The notes below the pieces were generated by a model. The model searched no databases. It worked only from the letters and a program-made list of their open reading frames with translations, and was not told the origin of the DNA. From positions 1 to 30,083 of the IMG/VR virus record IMGVR_UViG_3300037076_000109: 30,083 nt of DNA. One strand, written 5' to 3'. A program made the translations under genes and the position numbers. Shown here piece after piece: positions 188 through 14,029 of the stretch (within the stretch, counting starts at the first letter, position 1; each line of letters begins with the position of its first letter). Source of the DNA: a virus.

Positions 188-2596
188 CTAGTAATTTCCG
201 CCAAACATTGGTCCGATTCGGAGCGTTGTATCGCCCCCCGCTATGCCGACGTATCTGCCGGAAGGAATTGCAGTATCAACTTTTTGAATCTTCGGCGCTC
301 CGTTCACATAGCACGTCTGGATTGTTCCCACTGTGGTCATGCTGAGCACATCCCCGGCGGATGCGGTATAAGCAACTGTTGATCCAATCTGCGTTGGCGT
401 GCCGGATATGAATTTGAAAAGCTGTACTCCGGTCCCTTGAACATAGAAGCACGCATACATTGTTTCAACGGATGGACTCACTCGGCTTAGAACCGCGACC
501 GATCCCGCCGACGCCGGTAGCGTGACTATCGGAATTTGAATCCTCAGATTGTCACTACTCAGGGCGGTCGCGTAGTACATATAGCAACCCGTTGTCCCCA
601 CGGTCGCGCACGTCACTAAATTGGTGTTTATGCTGAGAGGTTGCGGAATGGTCGGGACTTGCGTCCACGGTGTGGTCAGATTTGCATTCGTTCGAGTGAA
701 ATCGTCGTAGACCACCGTTGTCACCGCCGCTGCCACGGTAGGAACGTAGGGGGGAATGTAATACCTGTACGCGCTTACTTGCGGTTTGGCGCTCCAGAAA
801 GTGAGCCATGCGTTGTAGATGAGCGAATTGCCGAATGCATTTGGGTGTATGCCGTCAGCGCCGAGTACGGTGCTGACGGCATACGACGAGAGCGGCGCGG
901 TGAAAATGTTCCCACTTGGATAGGTGGCGCTGATCCACGTAGCCAACGGCGCTTGCGTTGCCTGACAGGTGCTGGGCGAGCCTTCAAATATTGGCAGCAG
1001 GTGATACACGGTGATCCCGGCTGTTGTTAGTTGAGAAACAATGCTGGCGTAGTTCGTCTCAACCGTTCCGAGCGAGATTGAGTAAGCGCACAAATCGTTC
1101 CGACCGATGTTCAGCACCACGGCTTTAGGCTTCAACGCGATGATTTCAGGGATTTCGAGGAGTACGTCGCCGGTCGCATCTGATCCACCGGCCAGAGTGA
1201 TGGCCCTCGCATTTGTCTGTGCCAGCACCGAGAACGCTTGCGCATACGTTCCTGCATAGTAACCCACTGTTTTTGAATCCCCCACAAAAGCCACGTCGGT
1301 GCCAATCGGGATTGCGCTCGAAATACTTAGGGACGAGACAGCTATACTGCCCCCAAAATCGAACACGGCGAACCGTCCAAGGTTGGGCATATTGACCGTC
1401 TGCGGGTCCGAAACTTGAAACTGATACGACGCTGAGACTGCCGCACTGTGTGTCGTTAGGTCGCTGGCGGTACAGGTAAGCGTGTCAAAGTTTCTGTTGG
1501 CGGTTACAAATATTTGATCGCCTGCGGAATAAGCTAGATTACTGGGCGATTGTGCCAGCAGCGTTCCCGTTGCCCCTCCACCCCACACAACTACCAGCCC
1601 CGTTGAGCCAGTGTTCATGCCCATTTGACACACCGCATTGTAATAAGTCCCAGACGTTTCGGTGCTGCGAACGCCAAAGCCCAGACCATAGGTTGTGCTT
1701 CCCGCTGTCGGGGCTGTCATGGTCGCGGAGACTGTCCAATTTGCGAGCGTCGTGTAGTAGTTGTAATCCAAGCTGCTCGCAAACCCAGACGTTGCAGTTC
1801 CGGCAAAGTTGAGTGTCCCACCCGAAGTCGTAGGCGTCGGACTGACGCCGTGGTTTATGTAACCAGACAAGGAAGACCAAGATGTTTGATTGAGAATAAC
1901 GCCGGAAGCAAGTAACCCAGACACGCCGCCCGGTCCGCACCCGGTACCGTCCCCCTTAACGTATAGATCTGTACATGGTCCGGTTGCCCCGCCGATGATG
2001 ATGGGGTTCGTAGCGCCAGCCGCGACGATGCCTGGGAAACCCACCGCCTGGGATACGCCAGAGCCGGTCACGGTAACCCCCGCCGGAAGCGACCCGCTGC
2101 CAATAGGGCCGGTTGGGCCTGTCGGGCCGGTTGGGCCGGTTGGGCCTATGGCGCCGGGGATCATGTTCACCGGAATGCTCGAGACACCGGTGGCCGGGTT
2201 CCAGCTCGACCAGTCCCACGATGAGCCTGCGGTCACAATCGAGACCCCAGGGTACTGCGTGACCTGTCCCGTCGCGGTGTTGGTGATGGTGACGTGGTAG
2301 CGGATATTCAAGGGCGTAGTCAGCGCAGGGTTCGCGAGCTTGAATGTCGATGCGAACTGACCGGCGACGACATTCACACACTTCGTCGACTTGACGGCCT
2401 GGAATGCTCCGCCCACCGAGAATGCGATCGGGCTGTCGGTGGCGTCGGTCGCATAGGCGCAGTACTTACCCTTGATGCCGTCCCCGCCTGCATCCGAGAT
2501 CTCATTGGTGTTGGTCGTCGTGATGGTCAGGTAGTTGGACTGTGCCAGTACGCACGCAGGCGCAGCGAGGCTCAGCAGCAGCAATAGCTTCCGCAT
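188..2596 (-). CDS. Secreted-type tail fibre / receptor-binding protein with SGNH (GDSL) hydrolase domain
   Basis: This 802-residue protein starts at ATG 2596 behind GGGGAGAT. Residues 1-18 look like a Sec signal peptide (MRK, a Leu run, then VLA before Gln). A collagen-like GPT repeat lies near residues 149-164. A beta-rich LamG-like region follows at about 225-430. The SGNH esterase core comes next: block I GDS near 439, block III GRND near 498 and block V DGIHP near 582, which supply the Ser and the Asp/His of the catalytic triad. A second jellyroll-like region (from YDDFTRT) fills the C-terminus. In phages such hydrolases deacetylate or cleave surface glycans during adsorption. The last large gene after the tail-tip module is the usual fibre position. 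The signal peptide is unusual for a virion protein; a secreted adhesin or esterase is the alternative. Confidence 0.8.
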   Translation of the reverse strand: MRKLLLLLSLAAPACVLAQSNYLTITTTNTNEISDAGGDGIKGKYCAYATDATDSPIAFSVGGAFQAVKSTKCVNVVAGQFASTFKLANPALTTPLNIRYHVTITNTATGQVTQYPGVSIVTAGSSWDWSSWNPATGVSSIPVNMIPGAIGPTGPTGPTGPTGPIGSGSLPAGVTVTGSGVSQAVGFPGIVAAGATNPIIIGGATGPCTDLYVKGDGTGCGPGGVSGLLASGVILNQTSWSSLSGYINHGVSPTPTTSGGTLNFAGTATSGFASSLDYNYYTTLANWTVSATMTAPTAGSTTYGLGFGVRSTETSGTYYNAVCQMGMNTGSTGLVVVWGGGATGTLLAQSPSNLAYSAGDQIFVTANRNFDTLTCTASDLTTHSAAVSASYQFQVSDPQTVNMPNLGRFAVFDFGGSIAVSSLSISSAIPIGTDVAFVGDSKTVGYYAGTYAQAFSVLAQTNARAITLAGGSDATGDVLLEIPEIIALKPKAVVLNIGRNDLCAYSISLGTVETNYASIVSQLTTAGITVYHLLPIFEGSPSTCQATQAPLATWISATYPSGNIFTAPLSSYAVSTVLGADGIHPNAFGNSLIYNAWLTFWSAKPQVSAYRYYIPPYVPTVAAAVTTVVYDDFTRTNANLTTPWTQVPTIPQPLSINTNLVTCATVGTTGCYMYYATALSSDNLRIQIPIVTLPASAGSVAVLSRVSPSVETMYACFYVQGTGVQLFKFISGTPTQIGSTVAYTASAGDVLSMTTVGTIQTCYVNGAPKIQKVDTAIPSGRYVGIAGGDTTLRIGPMFGGNY
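2108..2147. repeat. Collagen-like 9-base repeat inside the fibre gene
   Basis: Near-identical GGGCCNGTNGG-type units encode the Gly-Pro-Thr repeats near residues 149-164 of the SGNH fibre. Such repeats form short trimeric collagen-like stalks in phage fibres. Confidence 0.75.
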
Positions 2597-8508: not shown

Positions 8509-10653
8509 TTACGCCGGCCTGAACCGTCCGTTGCGGATCGACTTCATGGTGGTCTGGGCCAGCGAACGCTCGTGCTGGGCTAGCATCTTCTTGAAGGTTG
8601 CAGCGTCGGCGATGCCGTTGAAGGTGTTGCCGCCGTTGTTGATGGTGTGGCCTCCTCCGCCGCCGCTCACCATTCTTTCGAAGGTGTTGTTCTGAGAAGC
8701 GGTAAGGACGCGCTCGCCGGAATGGGCAAGGATAGGAATCGCCGAACCAAGTGGGCCGGAGACGATGCCGCCCTGGTCGAAAGCTGCTAGAGCCATCACG
8801 CCGGTAAAGGCAGCGGCCCCGAAAATAGCGCCAGCAATCGGTCCGCCCCAGGCGCTAGCCCAGTCGAACGATTTGGCTGCGGCCGTCTTCGCGTGCTTGT
8901 AGATCGACTTGAGCGCCGACATCGTTTCGATGTTATCCTTCGCGGCGGTACCGGCCGCAGTGACAACCGTGGTCTCAGCTTCAGTCGCCACGGTGGAAGC
9001 AACCTTCTGGGTCTTATAGCGAATATCATGCATAAGCATCTGCTCATAGGCCTGAATGACCGACAGGAGCATCTCGGAGCCCAGCCGCCGGAACGCCTGA
9101 CTGATCGAGAGTTGGCCCCGTAGCATTTGCCCTTGAACCTGTATCCATTGATGCCCGATCTGGTCGAAGGCTTTTGTCCATCCCTTCGCAAACTCAGCCC
9201 CCTGCTTCCCGGCGAGAATCGATAGCTGTGCATTGTCCTTCTGCAGCGTAGCCAAGCGCTGCACTTCAAGCCGCTGCCACTCAACCGAGTCCTTAGAATA
9301 GAGAGCTTCGAGAGCATCGTAGTAGGCGTTCTGGATGGCAATCTTTTCCTTTACTAGTTCGGCGAGCTGGGCAGCCTCTTCGCCGCGACCCATGCCGCCA
9401 GCGGAGGCCAGGTTCCGAATACCCTGCTGCCGGCTCTGATTCTGGCCGAGCGCAGCGTCCATCGCGGACTTGGTCTTCAAGACATTGATTTCAAGTTGAA
9501 TCTGAAGCTGCCTCTCCTGCTCCTCCGTCTGCTTTTGCAGGACCGTTAGTCCGTCTCCAAGGACCGCGACGGCATTTCGATTCTGCTCATCGAACAGCCC
9601 CCTATTCGCCTCTTTAACCTTCTCGTCGTTCTCGAAGGCGTGAATATAATCCTCTTGCGCCTTCTTCCGGGCAGCCTCCTCTTTCCGCTGCGCCGCCGCC
9701 GTTTTCTCGATGGCGCGCTGCTTCTTCTCCTCAGCCTGTTCGGCGGCCTTTGCTTCTTTGTCTTTTTCATCGGTGTATTTCTGTTGCAACGCCATAATCT
9801 GAGATTGCGCTTTTTCCATCTGAGCTTGAAGCCCAGGCACACGGGCTTCTTGTGAAGCGGCCTCCATCTTGAGCTTTTCCGGGTTCTGACCGAAGGTTGG
9901 ATTCGCATCCGCAGCAGCCTGCCGCAACTGCTTGGCATCGTCGCGGGCCTTATTGATCTTTTTCTGTAAGAAATCGACGAGGTCGTTTTGGTTTTTGATG
10001 TCCGCTTTGATGGTGGCAATCGGGCTGGTTTCCATCGCAAGGCTGTGCAGTTGGGCGCGGGTTGCCGCCTCGGCGGCCCCTTGCTGCGCCACGTCTTTAT
10101 CTGTCCCCTTGGCGATGTCGTCTCGCAGTTGCTTAATGCCGAGAAGATCCGTGTACATGTCGCGCAGCTTTGAGCCGATGTGGATCATCATCTCGCCGAA
10201 GGCGATAGCGCCAATGATGGGGAATGCCGCCTGAATGATCGGGCCAAGGCCTAGCACGTTGACCGTGAATCGCTCAACCGCCCGTATCGGCAGAGCGCCT
10301 TCGAGTAGGCGGATCGCGCCAGATGCGGCGGCCACCTGGGGAACCATGCGCCCATGCGCGGCGGCGTTTGCAGTCGTGGCAGCGGCGTCTGCTTCTTCAG
10401 CCGCAGCCTCGGCCTCCAGTACCGGCACGATGTCTGCTACGGCCGCCTGGGCCTGGGCGAGTTCCGTTTTGTAAACCTGAAGTGCCGCGATCGCCTGCGC
10501 GCTCCCCGCCGCAGCCGCCGGGCCAAGTTCCTGCAGCGCCTGCGCCATGTTTTGCGTCGCCGCGCGAAGAGCCTCGGCGCTGCTCTTCGATTCGGTCTTC
10601 AGGCTGGAGAAGTCGGCTTTGACACCGACTCCAATCAACATATCGTCGGCCAT
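8509..10653 (-). CDS. Tail tape measure protein
   Basis: This 714-residue protein starts at ATG 10653 after AAAGGATTCCCG. It is mostly helical and Ala/Gln/Lys/Glu-rich, with long coiled coil at about residues 200-360. Hydrophobic stretches lie near 135-165 and 600-630. The C-terminus holds FDQGGIVSGPLGSAIPILAHSGERVLTA, a signature common at the end of tape measure proteins. The protein sets tail length, carries the tip peptidase system and helps DNA cross the membrane. At roughly 1.5 angstrom per residue it predicts a tail near 105-110 nm. A terminator just upstream isolates it from the moron gene. Confidence 0.93.
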   Translation of the reverse strand: MADDMLIGVGVKADFSSLKTESKSSAEALRAATQNMAQALQELGPAAAAGSAQAIAALQVYKTELAQAQAAVADIVPVLEAEAAAEEADAAATTANAAAHGRMVPQVAAASGAIRLLEGALPIRAVERFTVNVLGLGPIIQAAFPIIGAIAFGEMMIHIGSKLRDMYTDLLGIKQLRDDIAKGTDKDVAQQGAAEAATRAQLHSLAMETSPIATIKADIKNQNDLVDFLQKKINKARDDAKQLRQAAADANPTFGQNPEKLKMEAASQEARVPGLQAQMEKAQSQIMALQQKYTDEKDKEAKAAEQAEEKKQRAIEKTAAAQRKEEAARKKAQEDYIHAFENDEKVKEANRGLFDEQNRNAVAVLGDGLTVLQKQTEEQERQLQIQLEINVLKTKSAMDAALGQNQSRQQGIRNLASAGGMGRGEEAAQLAELVKEKIAIQNAYYDALEALYSKDSVEWQRLEVQRLATLQKDNAQLSILAGKQGAEFAKGWTKAFDQIGHQWIQVQGQMLRGQLSISQAFRRLGSEMLLSVIQAYEQMLMHDIRYKTQKVASTVATEAETTVVTAAGTAAKDNIETMSALKSIYKHAKTAAAKSFDWASAWGGPIAGAIFGAAAFTGVMALAAFDQGGIVSGPLGSAIPILAHSGERVLTASQNNTFERMVSGGGGGHTINNGGNTFNGIADAATFKKMLAQHERSLAQTTMKSIRNGRFRPA

Positions 10654-10720: not shown

Positions 10721-11482
10721 TTATTGCTTTGCGGCAGCTTCCTGAGCGTTGCGCTTCATCTCGTCTGCCTCGGACTGCTTCTGAGCCACGATTGCATGCC
10801 GAGCCTCAGCCTTTACGTCGACCACAACGAGAGGGTCGAAGTCTAGTCCGCAAGATACTGTGCCCCAATGGCGGAAATTCTTGTACTTTGACCATCCCCA
10901 CGCGCCTGGCATCTGGCACGGCGGAGCGAGAGTTCCAAGTTTGAGCTTGTCATACCAGAGGGCTTCGTGGGGTCCGTGCCCTTTCTGATTCTCACTCTTC
11001 CAGATTAGTTTATGATCGCGCGTGTAGAGACGAGCCTCGCCCTGGTAGGAAGCATTGTGGACCCACTCGCTGAGCGCATGCCCGAGCGCTACGCCCGGCG
11101 ACGGTCCATAGTATGAAGAGCAGTTGCCACGCCTGTCGCAGTCAACTGTGAGTTCATTTCCATCTGAATCTAAACAAGAGGTCGATGACAGGCCAGAACT
11201 GCACGAGACGGAAAGATAGTCCGATGGCCCGCGGTCCGGCATCGGATTGTTCACGATTTCGAGAATTGCGTCTGCCTTCGAAGGATCAGTTACCGGAGTA
11301 AGGCAAGTCTCTTCACTTAGGTGCTTATAAGCCCAAACCACGCCGTTGTAATGGTTGCCGGCGACGTAGACCGTGCTGATTCGGTAACCGTTCACGTTGG
11401 CTTCGCACTTCGCGAGTGCGTGTGCTTGCGCGGCCGTGGCAAGCACAGCCAAAAGTAGCGAGAGCAGAACCCGCTTTTTCAT
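10721..11482 (-). CDS. Secreted Cys-rich protein of unknown function (probable moron)
   Basis: I choose ATG 11482 (253 residues) because GGAG lies nine bases upstream and residues 1-20 form a clear Sec signal peptide (MKKRVLLSLLLAVLATAAQA). The mature protein has about ten cysteines (for example CEAN, VSCSSG, TSCLD, VDCDRRGNC), suggesting disulfides in the periplasm or outside. It also has a YQGEARLYTRDHKLIWKSENQKG segment typical of secreted bacterial proteins, and ends in a charged helix. It is not a recognised virion component. It interrupts the normally adjacent tail chaperone and tape measure genes and has its own candidate promoter and terminator, which fits a moron altering the infected host, for example its envelope. 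The function is unknown. Confidence 0.8.
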   Translation of the reverse strand: MKKRVLLSLLLAVLATAAQAHALAKCEANVNGYRISTVYVAGNHYNGVVWAYKHLSEETCLTPVTDPSKADAILEIVNNPMPDRGPSDYLSVSCSSGLSSTSCLDSDGNELTVDCDRRGNCSSYYGPSPGVALGHALSEWVHNASYQGEARLYTRDHKLIWKSENQKGHGPHEALWYDKLKLGTLAPPCQMPGAWGWSKYKNFRHWGTVSCGLDFDPLVVVDVKAEARHAIVAQKQSEADEMKRNAQEAAAKQ

Positions 11483-11507
11483 ATTAGGATTTCTCCGATA
11501 TGAGGCA

Positions 11508-11573: not shown

Positions 11574-12004
11574 CTACTTCGGCAAACCCACAAAATGAGC
11601 GAAGAGAAGGCGCAACGGCGGGTGCTGATTCCACCAGTTCAGTAGGTCCAAAACAGCCGGAAAAGGCATTTCCCCAGCCTGGTCATAGCTCATTCCGCCG
11701 TCAGTGATCAGGCGGCCGTAGACGGCGCTGAAGTCTAACGGCTCGCCACCACTTCCCCCGGCGTGATGCCGCTCAATTCAAGGATTCGCTCTGCCAATTC
11801 GTTTAGGTCGGGGATCGAGAACTCCTTCAGGTCATCTACCGAGACCTGGCCGCCGGCGTTCTTGATCGCTTCAACACACGTTTCAAGAGTCGCCTGGATG
11901 GGATTCTCCTTCGCGATGGGTGCGATAGCTTCAACTTGCCTAAGTTTCAGCGGCGCAATCACAAATTCCACGCCCGACGAGAGTGTAACGGTCTTCACTT
12001 GCAC
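11574..12004 (-). CDS. Tail assembly chaperone GT-type fusion made by -1 frameshift
   Basis: The short chaperone frame ends at TAG 11735-11737, but the -1 frame is open from about 11782 to TAG 11574-11576. A run of five G then AAG lies at 11752-11759 (codons CCG GGG GAA GTG), so a ribosome on GGG can slip back one base. The product would have 83 residues of the first frame plus 60 new ones, about 143 in total. The new part reads as real protein (AGEMPFPAVLDLLNWWNQHP). It matches the conserved arrangement in which a tail chaperone is extended by frameshift in a minority of products, to bind the tape measure protein. The A-site re-pairing is imperfect, so the exact slip site is inferred. Confidence 0.72.
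11735..12004 (-). CDS. Tail assembly chaperone (short form, G-like)
   Basis: This 89-residue protein starts at GTG 12004 behind GGGAGGCGCGC. It begins with beta strands (VKTVTLSSGVEFVIAPLKLRQ) and continues as helices, the usual look of tail tube chaperone N-domains. It lies between the tail tube gene and the tape measure, the canonical place. The chaperone coats the tape measure protein and recruits tube subunits and is absent from the virion. A G-rich slip site just before its stop allows the longer form. Confidence 0.75.
   Translation of the reverse strand: MQVKTVTLSSGVEFVIAPLKLRQVEAIAPIAKENPIQATLETCVEAIKNAGGQVSVDDLKEFSIPDLNELAERILELSGITPGEVVASR
11752..11759 (-). promoter_or_regulatory. 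Candidate -1 ribosomal slip site of the tail chaperone gene
   Basis: The coding strand reads GGGGGAAG with zero-frame codons CCG GGG GAA GTG. The window between the last -1 frame stop (TGA near 11783) and the zero-frame stop (11735) contains this run. P-site GGG re-pairs perfectly after a one-base slip; the A site does not re-pair perfectly. Confidence 0.6.
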
Positions 12005-12610: not shown

Positions 12611-13363
12611 TTACGCTGCGCCGAAACAATCCTGGAACAGGATGCCGGTGCCTGGGTCATAGACTGACATATCGAACTCCGGGATCATGATCTCGCCCTG
12701 CTTGAACTGCAGATTCAGTTTGTTCGAGGTGACCTTGAAGAAGCGCTTGCCGTAACCGCCGTCAGTCGGATTGAAGAGGATGCACTCGAAGTACGGCGCC
12801 TCCTGCTGGGCCAGGTTGGGCACGGAGATGGTGTATCCGACGGTTGCGCTGTTGTAGCTGTAGTTGAGCAACACCACAGCGCTGGCGTCGGCCGCCGCGA
12901 AGGTGTAGGTGCCGAGAGCCTGGGAATACTGGCCAACAGTCGGCGCGCTGGTGACGAGCTTCAGCGGGTTGCCGTTCGCCGCGTATTCGACGCCCAGGTC
13001 CTCGATGAAGTTCACGCCGGCCGCCCCGGCATTGAGCGCCGTGAGCGTGTAGGCTACCGAGCCGGGAATCGTTTGCATCTCGTTGAAGGTGTAGAGCACG
13101 GCGCCGGCGGTCACCGATGCGGCGTAATAGATCTCGGCGAAAGCGTTGGCATTGATCTTGGCCGACTTCGCTTTGAGATCGATCTTGCGCTGGCCGCGAA
13201 AAGCACGCACCGGTGCGGAATTGGCTCCGAAGAGTCGCTTTTCCTCGAAGCTGTCGTCGACCGACACTTCCTGCAGCTGGCCGAATTTGCGCGGGGTGGG
13301 GTTGGGATTGGCGGTAGTGGCAAGCGCCTTACCGACGAGAAAGCCTGCTCCGAAGCTGTTCAT
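12611..13363 (-). CDS. Major tail (tube) protein
   Basis: This 250-residue protein starts at ATG 13363 after AAGGAG. It is beta-rich with short loops. It has an N-terminal strand region (FGQLQEVSVDDSFEEKRLFG), a RKIDLKAKSAKINANAFAEI segment and a C-terminal KLNLQFKQGEIMIPEFDMSVY segment, all typical of phage tube proteins. It forms the stacked hexamer rings of the tail tube. An internal segment (GTYTFAAADASAVVLLNYSY) resembles one in the large tail-tip protein. It lies between the terminator-like gene and the chaperones, the standard order. Confidence 0.85.
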   Translation of the reverse strand: MNSFGAGFLVGKALATTANPNPTPRKFGQLQEVSVDDSFEEKRLFGANSAPVRAFRGQRKIDLKAKSAKINANAFAEIYYAASVTAGAVLYTFNEMQTIPGSVAYTLTALNAGAAGVNFIEDLGVEYAANGNPLKLVTSAPTVGQYSQALGTYTFAAADASAVVLLNYSYNSATVGYTISVPNLAQQEAPYFECILFNPTDGGYGKRFFKVTSNKLNLQFKQGEIMIPEFDMSVYDPGTGILFQDCFGAA

Positions 13364-13900: not shown

Positions 13901-14029
13901 CTAAAACGGCCCGTAAGGAAACTCGGCCGCAATTATTTCAAGCACCCGCTCCATGGCTACTATCACCGCCACCGTGAGCACCCCCATTGCCACCGACTTC
14001 AGGATCCTCAAAGCGGGAATCTGTTCCAT
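13901..14029 (-). CDS. 42-residue single-span membrane protein
   Basis: ATG 14029 follows GAAGGAG with a seven-base spacer and the frame runs to TAG 13901. After a short N-terminus (MEQIPALRILKS) there is one hydrophobic span of about 15-18 residues (VAMGVLTVAVIVAM), then a short acidic tail. It sits between the HK97-gp10-like and terminator-like genes and is 11 bases upstream of the latter's start. It could be an inner-membrane peptide such as a holin-like or superinfection factor. Function is unknown. Confidence 0.65.
   Translation of the reverse strand: MEQIPALRILKSVAMGVLTVAVIVAMERVLEIIAAEFPYGPF

Follow-up and report, generated by a model that had tools for sequence, protein, structure and literature searches.

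In phage lambda, two overlapping open reading frames (ORFs) lie in a -1 relation between the genes for the tail tube and the tape measure and give rise to a short product, G, and a fused product, GT, with GGGAAAG as the slip heptamer. The pair functions as a tail assembly chaperone, in which G binds the tape measure and T the tail tube (PMC5009743). The heptamer GGGGGAA was catalogued by PRFect as the 'fivetwo' motif in approximately 1,000 SEA-PHAGES chaperone genes, together with an argument based on a G:U pair, and CCCGGAA was the commonest 'threetwotwo' site (PMC10885494); GGGGGAA had been annotated in corynephage phi16 in 2017 (PMC5506516).

Here we analysed a stretch of 30,083 nucleotides from a soil phage (IMG/VR virus record IMGVR_UViG_3300037076_000109, positions 1 to 30,083; hereafter the window), in which a sequence-only reading had proposed a programmed -1 frameshift in a tail assembly chaperone. 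This proposal was supported by conservation of the frame and of the slip site, by the predicted fold of G and by the position of the genes, and it is highly probable that the locus is a lambda-type G/GT chaperone pair in which a -1 slip at 11759-11753 would yield a 143-aa GT. As in lambda, two ORFs in a -1 relation overlap at a place between the tail-tube and tape-measure genes and would specify a short and a fused product, but the heptamer in the window is GGGGGAA and not GGGAAAG, no sequence similarity was detected, and T in the window is a small helical domain of another kind, to which no Pfam entry matches. The heptamer, the gene position and the G:U reasoning are shared with the SEA-PHAGES chaperones and phi16, whose hosts are actinobacteria, whereas the relatives in which GGGGGAA is conserved here came from genomes of proteobacteria, from a MAG of Acidobacteria and from phages that are uncultured.

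Arrangement of the G and T frames

G is an 89-codon ORF in the 0 frame on the minus strand (11735-12004), with a GTG start at 12004 and a TAG stop at 11737-11735. The -1 open frame, T, occupies 11574-11777 of the same strand, where an in-frame stop at 11780-11778 closes its upstream side and a TAG at 11576-11574 its end, and it overlaps G by approximately 40 nt. The claim that a -1 frame opens shortly before the stop of the 89-residue gene, made with no mention of the strand, was borne out, as was that of a G run inside the overlap, which corresponds to GGGGGAA(G) at 11759-11753(52), in the phase G_GGG_GAA and 22 nt ahead of the G stop. A slip after GAA would join 84 residues of G to 59 residues of T (11753-11577, minus strand; phrog_8018 family), in agreement with the fusion of 143 residues that had been anticipated. 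In the window, the T frame contained no ATG, GTG or TTG ahead of the conserved domain, the first start being an ATG in the middle of the domain.

The order of genes, tail-tube candidate, G/T and tape measure, was that usual in tail modules, all on the minus strand. The tape measure protein is encoded downstream of G/T at 8509-10653 (minus strand; phrog_2854, E 8e-10). The tail-tube (major tail protein) candidate upstream, at 12611-13363 (minus strand), was identified by position and conservation and not by name; it matched phrog_8234 (unknown function, E 1e-37) and was kept beside G/T in the relatives.

Several further features of these tail modules were observed. Between T and the tape measure gene, the window contains a gene for a 254-aa protein (10721-11485, minus strand) that has cysteines and what looks like a signal peptide, and for which no Pfam match and no relative among phage records were found. 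The near relative L002 lacks this gene and has only approximately 0.2 kb at that place; insertion of a cargo (moron) gene into the tail module is a possible reading. In Acinetobacter phage 5W (L052, 5339-6049), the same interval between G/T and the tape measure gene holds another additional gene, annotated as a GDSL lipase, and in L002 a terminator-like hairpin, AAGCCGCCTTCGGGCGGCTTTT, is located at 13930-13975, past a small ORF that follows T and ahead of the start of the tape measure gene. Elsewhere in the window, the protein encoded at 188-2596 (minus strand) resembles a tail fibre and combines collagen-like GPTGPT repeats with a GDSL lipase domain (Pfam PF13472). Several relatives (L045, L037, L023, L024, L029 and others) carry tail-tube-like sequence twice, once further upstream and once beside the chaperone pair, which suggests a second protein with a domain common to the tube.

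Identity and conservation of the two products

Neither Pfam nor NCBIfam returned a match to G or T that was of use, and against profiles of named chaperones the E-values were 0.09 (Phage_TAC_7 with the window G) and 0.02 (phrog_183 'tail chaperone' with L196). The window G matched phrog_7947 weakly (E 0.013), with members of its family reaching 1e-53 to 1e-17, and T family members matched phrog_8018 with E-values down to 1e-43. Both phrogs are listed as separate families of 'unknown function', whereas the comparison made here shows them to be halves of a single chaperone with a frameshift.

The AlphaFold2 model of G (pLDDT 85.8) had as its top Foldseek match in the PDB the HK97 tail assembly chaperone, 2ob9 (probability 0.98, TM 0.62–0.64; best E 0.08, none below 1e-3). 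VIA Z scores over approximately 80 residues were 7.4 for 2ob9 and, for two further small proteins with that fold, 8.6 for YqbN (3klu) and 8.8 for RBSTP2171 (3fgx), followed by 4.8 for 5ir0, a PICI-like element protein, and at most 2.6 for unrelated entries; 'tail assembly chaperone' was also the name of many top-ranking predicted viral structures. G is thus predicted to adopt the HK97 tail assembly chaperone fold, a kinship that rests on the fold, identity to these three proteins being 9–19%. T was modelled as a small helical domain (pLDDT 90) for which neither the PDB (best Z 3.9) nor BFVD (best E 0.44) offered a convincing neighbour in structure; this is not proof of a new fold.

A direct search with the 143-aa fusion found no relative in viral contigs or phage records because the proteins diverge too fast, and relatives were therefore sought by way of other proteins: the major capsid protein led to viral contigs and prokaryote genomes, and the tail-tube candidate to cultured phages. 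Iterated over the loci of these relatives, a profile built from the -1 product gave 150 matches in 116 distinct loci, forming 63 clusters at 60% identity; the mixed T alignment was too diverse for a pattern search. Comparison with related phages had been suggested as a check, and by it the -1 frame proved to be conserved as protein in all of these loci. An upstream ORF stood in the -1 relation to T at 116 of 116 loci, with candidates in the -1 relation only at 80, in both -1 and +1 at 36 and in +1 only at none. The upstream ORFs of 114 loci were mutually homologous in an iterated profile, the E-values of which refer to a small set. In all 16 close pairs tested, dN was lower than dS in the T frame, the other two frames mostly showing the reverse or no preference. 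From conservation of the T frame, homology of the upstream ORFs and dN below dS it follows that T is a protein-coding domain and that the frame break is old and selected.

Slip site and candidate downstream stem

No canonical XXXYYYZ heptamer was present in phase within the overlap of the window, and GGGGGAA does not satisfy that definition, its YYY being GGA. Nor is GGGGGAA rare across the window, where 3 sites occurred compared with 4.3 expected; what is non-random about it is its position, phase and conservation. Counts were made on one representative of each of the 63 clusters, with overlaps totalling 6,271 bases and expectations derived from the same contigs. GGGGGAA stood in the slip phase at 45 places and out of that phase at one, against 0.18 expected, and was found in 44 of the 63 clusters, or in 51 when GGGGGAG was counted too (G_GGG_GAR). 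Where a Gly-Glu pair lay within the overlap, Gly was encoded by GGG in 55 of 56 cases, compared with approximately 12% of Gly in Gly-Glu pairs elsewhere, and the preceding base was G in 54 of 56. The heptamer was invariant in the seven nearest relatives (GGGGGAAG). Cultured relatives with GGGGGAA include the Herbaspirillum prophage of L157 and Acinetobacter phage 5W.

Three further clusters, including a large clade of environmental contigs, had C_CCG_GAA at a nearly fixed place, and in-phase CCCGGAA was present in all 16 members tested compared with 8 of 176 Pro-Glu pairs elsewhere. In a sister clade (L160-L182, L006, L009, L010 and L014), GGGGGAA was absent and in-phase CCCGGAA nearly fixed. 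In nearly all members of this clade the 0 frame ends in AAC CCC TGA, where the stop codon offers a further possible slip; as the slip site of the CCCGGAA lineage, C_CCC_TGA was ranked second, being absent in L014 whereas CCCGGAA is in all 16 members. The remaining clusters mostly had AAAAAAC, AAAAAAA, GGGGGGA or GGGAAAC. L029, L036, L037, L041, L044 and their kin carried A_AAA_AAC approximately 37–46 nt before the stop, and within one family the slip type has thus been exchanged.

At both Glu-type sites, the A-site tRNA moving from GAR to GGA would retain two standard pairs and one G:U pair, and sites of this type were dominant by cluster (54 of 63). We lean towards the view that they represent a distinct and broadly conserved class of -1 slip, in which a G:U pair in the middle of the codon lets Glu-tRNA, following Gly (G_GGG_GAR) or Pro (C_CCG_GAR), shift from GAA or GAG to GGA, a class replaced by classical A_AAA_AAC-type sites in some lineages and helped in the nearest relatives by a stem 5 nt downstream. 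The sequence-only reading had described the slip site as G-rich and unlike the common types, but it is not exceptional, GGGGGAA being the 'fivetwo' motif of the SEA-PHAGES chaperones; the A-site pairing, which had been called poor, is imperfect under the XXXYYYZ rule, yet re-pairing is possible by means of G:U (PMC10885494).

The candidate stimulatory stem-loop (11711-11747, minus strand) begins 5 nt past the heptamer, with arms at approximately 11747-11739, GGCGAGCCG, and 11718-11711, CGGCCGCC, in which GGCG.GCCG would pair with CGGC.CGCC with one bulged A. In the nearest relatives (the window, L002, L057, L058, L060, L062 and L063), the heptamer was followed by 5 nt and then by GGCGA-type and TCGCC-type arms approximately 21 nt apart. 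The stem was common to most of these seven, L063 being without it, and it comprised 8 perfect pairs in L002 and L057. Two stem pairs were altered on both sides among the nearest relatives, and pairing was halved when the partner was slid. Covariation of the stem was not significant compared with shuffles, at least 28 of 500 reaching the observed value on every measure, and an aid of the stem to the slip is tentatively offered as a lead and not as a result.

What computation shows here is how the two frames are arranged, that the -1 frame and the slip site with its phase are conserved, and which fold is predicted for G; a ribosomal slip, its frequency, help from the stem and what G and T bind are inferred as follows. 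Most ribosomes would terminate at 11735 and release the 89-aa G protein. In a minority, Gly-tRNA on GGG in the P site and Glu-tRNA on GAA in the A site would slip back by one base together, onto GGG and GGA, the slipped Glu-tRNA being held on GGA by a G:U pair at the middle position. These ribosomes would read on to 11576 and produce the 143-aa GT fusion, with a junction peptide predicted from a slip at GGGGGAA to be TPGESGGEPLDF (TPGE-SGGEPLDF across the fusion point). By analogy with lambda, the G part would bind the tape measure and the T part recruit tail-tube subunits (PMC5009743).

Alternative explanations and significance

The window is a single metagenomic virus record, and the break between G and T might in principle be an indel due to sequencing, assembly or gene decay, the true gene being one continuous frame. 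Yet 116 distinct loci, among them cultured phages and isolate genomes, show this -1 break, in most cases together with the same heptamer, and T is under purifying selection; this conservation already refutes an indel, to which we assign a negligible probability. Translation of T as a separate gene, through re-initiation at the stop of G or coupling to it and without a fusion, would be compatible with the ATG, GTG or TTG that precedes the domain in the T frame of 18 of the 63 clusters, and with public records, including those of the cultured Acinetobacter phage 5W and its kin, in which the G and T halves are separate hypothetical genes. An ordinary start is lacking there in the other 45 clusters and in the window, and re-initiation gives no meaning to the in-phase conservation of GGGGGAA, which makes it very improbable.

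The run of five G at the site could point to slippage of RNA polymerase and not of the ribosome, but five bases make a short run for slippage on the transcript, which would moreover not require the run to keep any particular phase against the codons, whereas that phase is conserved (45 versus 1); other lineages retain the non-homopolymeric CCCGGAA, and polymerase slippage has hardly any probability. The exact site of the shift is invisible from sequence alone, and it might lie elsewhere in the 40-nt overlap, but the overlap holds no other in-phase XXXYYYZ heptamer and the heptamer at 11759-11753 does not vary among the nearest relatives, so that we consider a different site very unlikely. Points counted against a ribosomal slip at GGGGGAA in a G/GT chaperone pair were the imperfect A-site re-pairing by XXXYYYZ, the weak covariation of the stem, the Foldseek E-value of G, which was not below 1e-3, the lack of a recognisable structural relative of T and the signal-peptide gene between T and the tape measure gene.

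The comparative data give good support to a programmed -1 frameshift, of a type already known, in a family that had no name before. The GGGGGAA slip site itself is not new. What the comparisons add is the assignment of a family across several bacterial groups and evidence independent of existing annotation; also new are the separate hypothetical annotation that the halves still carry in cultured relatives, the tentative downstream stem and the dominance of GAR to GGA. Phrog_7947 and phrog_8018, matched by G and T family members and split as 'hypothetical' in current annotation, would gain a function and the missing long product. The comparative evidence suggests that GGGGGAA and CCCGGAA are under selection as slip sites in phages of other bacteria than those of the actinophages, whose annotation had so far been the main source from which these sites were inferred, and such selection on non-canonical sites makes the model of A-site re-pairing by G:U directly testable.
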